From positions 1-29,929 of the IMG/VR virus record IMGVR_UViG_3300032087_002899: a stretch of DNA of 29,929 bases, one strand, 5' to 3'. This document shows positions 3,674-10,422 of this stretch, piece after piece. The first letter of the stretch is position 1. Each line of letters opens with the position of its first letter. Made by a program: the position numbers and the translations under genes. The notes beneath the pieces are model-generated. The model was not told the DNA's origin, searched no databases, and worked only from the letters and a program-made list of their open reading frames with translations. The DNA is from a virus.

Positions 3674-3748
<75 letters not shown>

Positions 3749-4421: not shown

Positions 4422-4637
4422 ATGATGAAATTTAAAGTTACATGGAAACGTGGATACGGTGATTCAGACGGAAAGTCTGAGATCGTTAATTTTGACGAAT
4501 TATTAGATTGGAATTTAGACGCATATTTGGGTGACGAATGGATCGATGAGTTCAAAGAAATGACTGTCGGTGGTGACATCAAATATGTTTACGGCCCATG
4601 CGGTGAAGAAGAAGTACATTATGAAAGGATCGCTTAA
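4422..4637 (+). CDS. hypothetical 71-aa protein, first gene of early operon
   Basis: The product begins MMKFKVTWKRGYGDSDGKSE and contains FDELLDWNLDAYLGDEW; it is acidic and soluble. No family recognised. Starting at ATG 4422 (or 4425) is preferred over the upstream TTG because the promoter would start transcription at about 4421. There is no Shine-Dalgarno. The stop TAA shares a base with the next ATG (TAATG at 4635-4639), so translation is coupled. As the promoter-proximal gene of a long run, it is likely made early in infection. Confidence 0.7.
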   Translation: MMKFKVTWKRGYGDSDGKSEIVNFDELLDWNLDAYLGDEWIDEFKEMTVGGDIKYVYGPCGEEEVHYERIA

Positions 4638-4930
4638 TGAAAAAACCTAACTTATCAAAACTAGAATACTGGTTAAAATTAAAAGATCAAATGAGAGGTA
4701 TGAGTGTCAAAGATTTGGATATCATTATTCAAATGGCGACAGAACAAAAACGAAATCTAGGAAAGATGTCGTCTTTCAAATATTCTCTCGGTGATCAAGT
4801 AATGTTTGGCAGACCAAATGGTCGTCAACGACTTGGTAAGATCGTGAAACTTAACCCTGCGAAAGCACTGATTGAAGAAGTCGGTGGTTCGAAATGGAGA
4901 GTTCCTTACTCTCTAATTAAGGCGGCGTAA
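4637..4930 (+). CDS. hypothetical 97-aa protein with SH3-like C-terminal half
   Basis: The N-terminal half (to about residue 48) is helical and charged. The C-terminal half, SLGDQVMFGRPNGRQRLGKI followed by KALIEEVGGSKWRVPYSLI, has the strand spacing and Gly positions of a small SH3/KOW-like barrel, often a nucleic-acid or protein contact module. This is a fold-level impression only. It is coupled at both ends: start and stop codons share a base with the neighbours. A relative of the DUF3553-like protein in fold style, but not in sequence. Confidence 0.65.
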   Translation: MKKPNLSKLEYWLKLKDQMRGMSVKDLDIIIQMATEQKRNLGKMSSFKYSLGDQVMFGRPNGRQRLGKIVKLNPAKALIEEVGGSKWRVPYSLIKAA

Positions 4931-5094
4931 TGATCGTTAAAAAACAAAAATCAAGAGATGCAAAAAGGTACGTGTTAACATCACGTGCCAGAAATAAACA
5001 ATTAGGTCTTATTAAAAAGTCATCTAAAAAATCAATGCGACAGTATAATAAACAGATGACAGATATAAGATACATGGATTCACACTATGCCTAA
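4930..5094 (+). CDS. small basic protein (54 aa)
   Basis: ATG 4930 shares its A with the preceding TAA. The product begins MIVKKQKSRDAKRYVLTSRA and holds many Lys and Arg residues throughout (KKSSKKSMRQYNKQ). The charge suggests nucleic-acid contact, but no motif is recognised. Its last bases overlap the next start at 5087. It falls below common ORF-length cut-offs and would be missed by them. Confidence 0.55.
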   Translation: MIVKKQKSRDAKRYVLTSRARNKQLGLIKKSSKKSMRQYNKQMTDIRYMDSHYA

Positions 5095-5338
5095 AGATGA
5101 ATTAGAACAGTTTAAAGTAGAACCTATTACATTTACTAGGGTCACTTTAGAAGTTGAAAAAATACGTATTGATGATATACTAGATCAATATCGTAGAAAA
5201 ATGCAAGATAGACCTCTTAAAGAAAATGAAAATCTAAACATGAATAGGTTTGAGGGATATATGCAAGGGTTATATTTTATGGAAAAAGTTATCATGGAGG
5301 CGCTGAATGAGCAATCAAAGACCCGGCAAATTCACTAA
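5087..5338 (+). CDS. hypothetical 83-aa protein
   Basis: The product begins MPKDELEQFKVEPITFTRVT and is mostly helical by eye, with a charged DDILDQYRRKMQDRP segment and a FEGYMQGLYFMEKVIMEALN helix near the C terminus. No family recognised. It overlaps its neighbours by 8 bases upstream and 32 downstream, as is usual in this operon. Confidence 0.65.
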   Translation: MPKDELEQFKVEPITFTRVTLEVEKIRIDDILDQYRRKMQDRPLKENENLNMNRFEGYMQGLYFMEKVIMEALNEQSKTRQIH

Positions 5339-9284: not shown

Positions 9285-9438
9285 TAGACTGCACATAGTA
9301 GGATATACGCACATATCAGGCGACTTCTTCGGTCATATTCTCAGAGTCAACGGAAAGAAAGTACAATATATACCTGTACCACATGTTTGCGTAAAACTTT
9401 ACAAAACCCTAAGAAATATAGTAAGTAGTGTTGGTTAG
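9268..9438 (+). CDS. hypothetical 56-aa protein
   Basis: ATG 9268 follows GGAGAGG (9258-9264), a good ribosome binding site, and overlaps the zf-CHCC gene by 17 bases. The product begins MRHYGNRLHIVGYTHISGDF and ends in a helix-like VCVKLYKTLRNIVSSVG stretch. No family recognised. It is the last gene before the non-coding island. Confidence 0.5.
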   Translation: MRHYGNRLHIVGYTHISGDFFGHILRVNGKKVQYIPVPHVCVKLYKTLRNIVSSVG

Positions 9439-9516
9439 AGTCTGCGGCCTATCGGCAAAAAATTTCTGAGTTTCCACAAAAATTATCGAAAAATCCCATC
9501 GGGGCCCGAAAAGGCC

Positions 9517-9545
9517 TTGACAAAAGCCCAAACCTGTGGTATAAT
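9517..9545 (+). promoter_or_regulatory. consensus sigma70 promoter P1 of the island
   Basis: Perfect TTGACA (9517-9522) and TATAAT (9540-9545) with a 17-base spacer; the strongest promoter by sequence in the window. Transcription would start at about 9552, just before the palindrome at 9561-9598. Confidence 0.8.
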
Positions 9546-9560
9546 AGGTTATGTGCCTGG

Positions 9561-9598
9561 GGGTATAGTATAGCATATCAGCGTAGTATAGTATACCC
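9561..9598 (+). repeat. imperfect inverted repeat between two promoters
   Basis: GGGTATAGTATA (9561-9572) faces TATAGTATACCC (9587-9598): 11 of 12 positions pair around a 14-base loop, with one G-G mismatch. It also forms a direct repeat of TATAGTATA. It ends at the -35 box of the next promoter. It could be a hairpin in the P1 transcript or an operator. Confidence 0.6.
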
Positions 9599-9627
9599 TT
9601 GACAAATGGTACAAACTATGATATATT
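9599..9627 (+). promoter_or_regulatory. sigma70 promoter P2, driving the candidate RNA
   Basis: TTGACA (9599-9604), 17-base spacer, TATATT (9622-9627). The predicted start is 9634, exactly the first base of an 11-bp hairpin. Confidence 0.72.
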
Positions 9628-9633
9628 AATAGA

Positions 9634-9802
9634 ATATCACAGATACATCACAGTATGTTCGAGTGATCTGTGATATACAGTCAGAGTGGCCTCATTAAGG
9701 TAGTTTGGTGGCCCACATAGTACACATAGAGCGGCTCTCAATCGCCGATAGTGTATGAAAGTTCCGAGTTCTCGGTGTGGGGTGGAAGTTGAGGCCCTCT
9801 GA
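9634..9802 (+). ncRNA. candidate structured non-coding RNA
   Basis: The 5' end is set by promoter P2. A perfect 11-bp hairpin pairs 9634-9644 with 9666-9676 around a 21-base loop. A second domain is closed by a 13-bp stem with one bulged T (9687): 9681-9686 and 9688-9694 pair with 9790-9802. Inside it lie TACAC/GTGTA (9721-9725 with 9751-9755) holding CGGC/GCCG (9732-9735 with 9744-9747), and the hairpin CCGAG/CTCGG (9764-9768 with 9771-9775). AGAG/CTCT (9728-9731 with 9735-9738) is an alternative to the CGGC stem. No coding frame fits. I see no terminator, so the 3' end is a guess, and the RNA could read into the 9980 gene as a leader. Confidence 0.45.
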
Positions 9803-9927
9803 ACTATACATGCGACAGGTTGACACCCCGCCCTTTAGAGTAGGTGGTGGCTTGTAATCTATAAATGCAATGTAGAATCCTACCTTTATACTGCGACATT
9901 CTGGTACCCCCACCCCCCTAAATTCTC

Positions 9928-9956
9928 TTGACAAACCCGTAGGGATGTTATATACT
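9928..9956 (+). promoter_or_regulatory. sigma70 promoter P3, before the 9980 gene
   Basis: TTGACA (9928-9933), 17-base spacer, TATACT (9951-9956). Predicted start about 9963, giving a short leader that includes the AAAGGA ribosome binding site (9968-9973). Confidence 0.78.
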
Positions 9957-9979
9957 AAAATATATCGAAAGGATAAATT

Positions 9980-10183
9980 ATGGGAAAAGTAAAAGCAATG
10001 TACATGGAACAAGAAGAACAGATTATGGAGTGGTATTATGACGGTATTACTCTTGAAAAGGCAAAACATCTAGCGGAATTGTCTTTCGGTCCTTCTGTAA
10101 TACAATTAGTAGAAGAAATCTACAAATATGGTGAATCTTACTTTCTAGAGAAAGAACACTATGGTGTCGAAGAGCCTATATGA
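9980..10183 (+). CDS. hypothetical 67-aa acidic protein
   Basis: AAAGGA (9968-9973) precedes ATG 9980, itself behind promoter P3. The product begins MGKVKAMYMEQEEQIMEWYY and continues with a KAKHLAELSFGPSVIQLVEE helix and an acidic end. It is helical, with an Ala/Leu-rich middle. No family recognised. Its stop overlaps the next mini-ORF (ATGA). A near-consensus promoter suggests strong early expression. Confidence 0.72.
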   Translation: MGKVKAMYMEQEEQIMEWYYDGITLEKAKHLAELSFGPSVIQLVEEIYKYGESYFLEKEHYGVEEPI

Positions 10184-10356: not shown

Positions 10357-10422
10357 ATGATTGAATATGCGATGATACTCTTTGCAATTCTACTGAATGA
10401 AACTTTGATCAGTATATTTTAG
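10357..10422 (+). CDS. 21-aa hydrophobic mini-ORF ending in the tRNA
   Basis: ATG 10357 follows TGGAG (10346-10350). The peptide MIEYAMILFAILLNETLISI plus one residue is hydrophobic. Its TAG stop uses the first base of the tRNA-Ala gene. The length is marginal and it may be chance, but it continues the row of membrane mini-ORFs. Confidence 0.28.
   Translation: MIEYAMILFAILLNETLISIF

Follow-up and report, generated by a model that had tools for sequence, protein, structure and literature searches.

A covarying structured RNA family associated with sigma70-type promoters in T4-like marine phages

The stretch of DNA analyzed here (the window) comprises 29,929 nt, positions 1-29,929 of the IMG/VR virus record IMGVR_UViG_3300032087_002899. 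It contains T4-type baseplate genes, and its gp6 homologue shares ~50% identity with that of the methylophage Melnitz and 48-49% with those of the pelagiphages Mosig and HTVC008M; no near DNA match to the window was found among phage records. ARAGORN reported only a tRNA-Thr at 3674 and a tRNA-Ala at 10422 in the window, and the RNA element considered below was not matched as a tRNA or tmRNA. This element, at 9634-9802 on the plus strand, lies in an island that is richer in G+C than its surroundings, as the original prediction had claimed (0.473 at 9634-9802 and 0.427 at 9440-9980, vs 0.34 for the whole window).

The element is preceded by a dedicated sigma70-type promoter, TTGACA-17-TATATT, at 9599-9627 (+), which was found where it had been predicted. 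It consists of a TTGACA box (9599-9604), a 17-nt spacer and a TATATT box (9622-9627), with 11/12 matches. The predicted start, 9634, is indeed the first base of a perfect 11-bp hairpin. In addition to this promoter, the only one previously described, two further strong promoters lie on the same strand: a perfect one upstream (TTGACA-17-TATAAT, 9517-9545, 12/12), from which a transcript would also cross the RNA, and a third (TTGACA-17-TATACT, 9928-9956) for a downstream 67-aa ORF (9980-10183). The upstream promoter is kept in relatives L003 and L006 (~79%), where its -10 box reads TAGAAT. Across the window, there are 4 instances of the pattern TTGACA-N16-18-TATAWT, whereas 0.21 would be expected.

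The predicted fold, all on the plus strand, starts with hairpin H1 (9634-9676), in which ATATCACAGAT (9634-9644) pairs perfectly with ATCTGTGATAT (9666-9676) to form 11 bp around a 21-nt loop. It is followed by a domain at 9681-9802 closed by helix P1, whose 5' strand TCAGAGTGGCCTCA (9681-9694) pairs with the 3' strand TGAGGCCCTCTGA (9790-9802) through 13 bp, a single U (9687) being bulged out. Inside P1, the internal loop J1 (UUAAGGUAGUUUGGUGG, 9695-9711) leads to helix P2, formed by CCCACA (9712-9717) and UGUGGG (9776-9781). P2 in turn encloses the P3 arm (9721-9755; UACAC...GUGUA with an inner stem CGGC/GCCG and the loop UCUCAAUC), the bulge J2 (UGAAAGUU, 9756-9763) and a hairpin, P4 (9764-9775; CCGA-GUUC-UCGG), while the internal loop J3 (GUGGAAGU, 9782-9789) joins P2 to the 3' strand of P1. 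Both the hairpin and the bulged 13-bp domain are thus present at the places originally given.

The folding energy of the RNA is low, with an MFE of -57.2 and a z of -2.96 (200 shuffles, 1 as low). When the whole window was scanned (60 shuffles), the RNA had a z of -2.39; the z of 13 out of 351 other windows was lower still, but not one of the 351 had a lower MFE. The anticipated excess over shuffled sequences is therefore there at a modest size (z about -2.4 to -3.0), but folding energy alone is only suggestive, a weak form of evidence for a structured RNA. Elsewhere in the window, a run of 170-nt windows at 4676-5270 (+) shows unusually low folding z, down to -4.2; this run lies inside and extends beyond the ORF at 4637-4930. 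As for coding potential, the sole long ORF overlapping the RNA is a 124-aa frame on the minus strand (9695-10069), which is broken by stops in L003, and no reading frame over the RNA stays open among the homologues compared. Some long forms contain an MLWPT-like frame, but it is not a general feature. We therefore rejected the coding alternative, in agreement with the earlier judgment that the island has no plausible coding frame.

Homologues were collected from IMG/VR contigs of T4-like marine phages. Searches with the flanking proteins returned five contigs with the region, of which two are near-identical (98-100%) and three stand at ~79%; in these relatives, the changes respect the stems and spare the loops. 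More distant copies came from a profile search of contigs that had been retrieved with gp6, and a pattern scan with iteration and a second scan led to 50 matches, 44 of them distinct sequences. Because the scans of viral contigs needed exact short motifs, very divergent members were missed; many short-form members were reached via a neighboring conserved site. Three bacterial MAG matches from a pattern scan of genome contigs were taken as chance, the model being silent on them even at E 1. No second copy of the RNA was found in any record searched. Model R2 locates the RNA of the window at 9682-9803 (67.1 bits, E 1.6e-14), a score to be read with the window itself among the model sequences. 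The window copy carries the R2 family features, namely P1, J1 with UUAAGG, P2, J2 with AAAGUUC, P4 and J3, together with the dedicated sigma70 promoter.

The homologues share a common architecture, which consists of P1, the UUAAGG internal loop, P2, the AAAGUUC bulge and P4, and they come in two forms. The short form (~80-90 nt) has only P1, J1, P2, J2, P4 and J3, whereas the long form (~170 nt), to which the window belongs, has an extra 5' hairpin and the third arm, P3. Consequently, the unit originally proposed holds in part: the 9681-9802 domain is conserved, whereas the 5' hairpin is limited to the long form. Within that form, an H1-type hairpin lies near the predicted start in 10/10 representatives, with a stem sequence that differs in most lineages, and between the window and L003 the stem letters of P3 differ and its loop is the same. 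In J1, UUAAGG and the final UGG are invariant in 44/44 sequences, an invariance that exact-motif scanning has partly built in for the searched motifs, and AAAGUUC (J2 with the first base of P4) is nearly invariant. The first long-form scan required neither UUAAGG nor AAAGUUC; nevertheless, among its matches in which the region can be seen, UUAAGG is present in every one and AAAGUUC in nearly every one.

Around these constant loops, the helices change in a coordinated manner. In the 44-sequence alignment, 10/10 modeled pairs of P1 change on both sides and 87.4% of cells are paired; P2 is paired in 95.8% of cells with CG/UA/AU/GC exchanges, its variants including CCCACA/UGUGGG, GCCACA/UGUGGC, CUCACA/UGUGAG, UUAACA/UGUUAU and CAUGCA/UGCAUG; and in P4, 3/4 pairs show both-side changes with 93.8% of cells paired. 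Altogether, 17/20 pairs contain double-sided changes, which number 239 vs 68.0±8.6 in shuffles, with a score of 0.692 vs 0.209 and 91.3% of cells paired vs 65.7%. This alignment was fitted to the structure and leans towards it, whereas a MAFFT alignment of 22 sequences used sequence only. In the latter, P2 and P4 are paired in 95.9% of cells with 41 double-sided cells vs 11.3±2.8 in shuffles, and the signal collapses when the partner is slid by 1-3 columns. Covariation in homologues, which had been proposed as a check, is thus found in all three core helices, and we regard it as decisive. The opposing explanation is that there is no RNA at all, only chance pairing in AT-rich phage DNA combined with unrelated conserved DNA signals. 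The modest single-sequence folding z, with 13/351 windows lower, is what this explanation would have in its favor, but covariation far above both shuffles and slid controls in two independent alignment methods leaves it exceedingly improbable. That the RNA forms a real structured family is, accordingly, close to certain, and since the fold is kept through many compensating mutations, the phages need the shape of the RNA.

The promoter is also a general feature of the family. Of the 42 distinct homologues whose upstream sequence is long enough, 34 have a sigma70-type promoter with 10-12/12 matches within 150 nt of the RNA, vs 50 of 977 control windows (5%); insofar as sequence can tell, this supports the promoter-driven reading of the original prediction. 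The 5' hairpin of the long form sits at the predicted start. In short-form members with such a promoter, the distance from the end of the -10 box to the model start is usually 5-14 nt, and transcription is thus predicted to begin at the base of P1. At the other end, a T-run of >=4 directly follows P1 in 13/44 homologues vs 6.5% of controls. No terminator is apparent in the window's own copy, and the window RNA could be the first part of a longer transcript. In L078 (tRNA and RNA at 1856-2020), a short-form RNA has no promoter of its own and lies ~5 nt behind a tRNA-Thr(UGU) gene, implying that tRNA and RNA would share a precursor transcript; such a placement is expected if the RNA is stable. 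In one clade (L102, L104, L109), the upstream promoter is followed by a small ORF, ~50 aa long and basic, that overlaps with the RNA's own promoter; the matching place in the window holds only MCLGV.

The RNA is usually found just upstream of a conserved site, which in the window lies at 9833-9871 (+), adjoining the RNA outside its fold, and comprises a CTTTAGAGTAG box and GTAATCTATAAATGCAAT. The consensus of the site is a C/G run followed by TAAAACTG-N12-TAATCTATAAATGYAAT, also written AAAACTG-N12-TAATCTATAAATGYAAT. It occurs once each in the window, in Melnitz (L113, 3559) and in HTVC008M (L114, ~2340-2380), as a variant in Mosig (L225, ~2553), once in each of eight further contigs and in many of the records L115-L220; nothing like it was found in T4. 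RNA and site are often adjacent and are separable, as each is found without the other in some records; only members found by RNA pattern or gp6 are informative on how frequent this adjacency is. We rejected GTAATCTATAAATGCAAT as a general late promoter, since it is single per record. By comparison, TATAAATA, the ordinary late promoter of T4 type, occurs 5 times in the window, in some cases close before gene starts (12011, 13666, 20935/20947), and ~20 times per relative. A published attempt to find middle and late promoters in pelagimyophages did not succeed (PMC7029224). GC skew in HTVC008M and Melnitz gave no support to the site as a replication origin. Possible roles for the site are those of a special promoter, an origin or a packaging signal.

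Other conserved elements surround the RNA. Behind the site, a second box, CCCCCACCCCCCTAAA, is present at 9906-9925 of the window and at equivalent places in L037, L041 and L103, which belong to the window's lineage; the CCACCCC in this box and the GGGGUGG of the RNA (9779-9785) are complementary. In short-form relatives (L133/L096, L142, L192, L123, L128), an element GGTGGAGGCCAGGGCGCG...GCGCTCCCACC recurs beside the RNA. It folds well, at -25 to -29 kcal/mol, and has no Rfam match in L123; it is possibly another RNA family. Hairpin-like conserved blocks also lie upstream of the RNA (CCCCCCTAGTGT...GCTGGGGGATG and GGAGAAAGAATTTAAGAACACTGAAGG...GATTCTCC; L123, L128 and L144/L152). These blocks suggest that the RNA islands hold several structured RNAs.

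What the RNA does must be judged from its conservation and its surroundings. Across lineages, the genes nearest to it on the downstream side come from many unrelated families, which disfavors a leader of one particular gene. The varying helices, the invariant loop and bulge, the early promoter and the lack of a constant neighbor together point to a trans-acting RNA whose loop would be a binding site. We therefore propose that 9634-9802 is a stand-alone, early, trans-acting RNA gene, likely protein-binding, and we give this statement, mechanism included, about an even chance of being right. The fold, the association with promoters and the changing gene neighborhood are established computationally, whereas expression during infection, action in trans and protein binding are inferred. 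According to this proposal, host sigma70 RNA polymerase would transcribe the RNA early from its own promoter, and the RNA would fold into a P1-P2-P4 rod with an asymmetric internal loop (UUAAGG...UGG / G...GU) and the AAAGUUC bulge, to which the long form would add the 5' hairpin and the third arm. The variable helices would position the invariant loop and bulge as a binding platform, through which the RNA would act in trans. Its putative partner is most likely a protein, of host or phage, of the gene-expression machinery; no recognizable protein-binding motif is present in the invariant loop. A bolder version, in which the family is a new class of phage RNA for host takeover and the UUAAGG loop and AAAGUUC bulge of the early transcript bind and reprogram the ribosome or RNA polymerase of cells infected by uncultured T4-like marine phages, is conceivable but rather doubtful.

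Two other readings tie the RNA to the DNA around it. The RNA might act in cis: it would then be part of a longer early transcript and, as a structured leader, an aptamer or an attenuator, control the genes downstream. Aptamers usually show a conserved internal loop with variable helices, and the RNA has this look; moreover, no terminator follows the window copy, the downstream genes are on the same strand in most lineages, and there is a precedent in the manA and wcaG RNAs of T4-like cyanophages, which lie in possible 5' UTRs of metabolic genes (PMC2864571). However, the constant 5' UTR position within one pathway that marks riboswitches and cis-leaders was not found, as the nearest genes downstream are of unrelated kinds in different lineages; in the window, a separate promoter (9928) serves the downstream gene, several copies finish with a T-run immediately behind P1, and the L078 RNA sits behind a tRNA. 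On balance, we consider a cis element unlikely. The adjacent site raises the alternative that the RNA is a replication-origin primer or R-loop RNA, transcribed into this single-copy site. In T4, origins combine a promoter and an unwinding element; here, the site is single per record where found and, in most homologues, follows the RNA at a distance of 33-153 nt, and the GGGGUGG of the RNA is complementary to CCACCCC beyond the site (9913-9919). Yet several members found by RNA pattern alone (L240, L242, L230, L239, L231) lack a downstream site, HTVC008M, Melnitz and G001 carry the site without the RNA, and neither HTVC008M nor Melnitz shows a GC-skew turn at the site, all of which makes an origin RNA improbable.

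The remaining two readings, a 6S-like decoy and a ribosome decoy, are specific versions of the trans-binding idea. A rod with a central asymmetric bubble, made early from a sigma70 promoter, could mimic an open promoter through P1, bubble and P2 and bind host sigma70 RNA polymerase, favoring late transcription. This is very unlikely, given that the RNA has no 6S match at E up to 10 and is half the length of 6S RNA, and that its bubble is conserved in sequence, unlike that of 6S RNA, whose bubble is not known to be conserved in sequence. A pairing of the invariant UUAAGG (UUAAGGAGGUUGG in L167) with the 3' end of 16S rRNA, by which the RNA would act as a ribosome decoy, agrees with UUAAGG being unpaired and invariant in 44/44 and with the full Shine-Dalgarno-like string in L167. 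Nevertheless, most copies lack the GAGG core, and 5-6 complementary bases are weak, so that we rate it, too, as very unlikely.

To our knowledge, few families of non-coding RNA in phages are backed by strong covariation, and most of these have no established function. For the present family, there are now a consensus and a covariance model, along with 44 distinct members, short and long forms and a predicted start. A further result is that a structured RNA missing from the cultured pelagiphages and methylophages examined is carried by their uncultured relatives, and that this RNA lies beside a single-copy conserved site in T4-like marine phages.

Comparison with known families returned no counterpart. 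At the gathering threshold, Rfam 15 found only the two tRNAs in the window and only tRNAs in five relatives; at E up to 10, it gave three chance-level matches in 9430-9990, none over the domain, and a single chance-level match (E 2.3), outside the RNA, in the L123 region. Likewise, when the region and the core sequences of the two forms were compared by blastn with 50,697 phage records, only chance-level matches appeared, and the covariance model had no match in the complete genomes of T4 (NC_000866), HTVC008M, Mosig and Melnitz, which include the nearest cultured relatives. The original statement that no RNA with this layout has been described is upheld by these Rfam 15, blastn and four-genome covariance-model searches. 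We also considered a resemblance of UAAGG..AAGUUCC in the RNA to H68-H71 of 23S rRNA, and judged it compatible with chance. The RNA is thus classified as a new family, phage-encoded structured RNA genes being known as a kind.

Among known systems, RNA C and RNA D of T4 (species 1 and 2, rnaC/rnaD; 139 and 119 nt) resemble the RNA as small structured RNAs without known function that lie beside phage tRNA genes in a T4-type phage. Their sequence and fold are unrelated, rnaC has a tRNA-like T-arm at its end, and the T4 genome holds no match to the model; they are its nearest analogues by kind and not homologues. 6S RNA is similar by analogy only, as a rod with a central asymmetric bubble, and differs in that the window RNA is shorter, conserved in loop sequence and without Rfam match. 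The manA (RF01745) and wcaG (RF01761) motifs are likewise structured RNAs of marine T4-like phages, whereas the window RNA has its own promoter, no constant downstream gene and no Rfam match. In the cultured relative Melnitz, a two-piece tmRNA and a glutamine riboswitch have been reported (PMC9004378); the window RNA matches neither, and Melnitz does not carry it. Finally, ROOL and GOLLD share with the family their association with phages, their structure and their unknown function, but they gave no Rfam match here and are homo-oligomer-forming RNAs far larger than the window RNA (PMC12286853).
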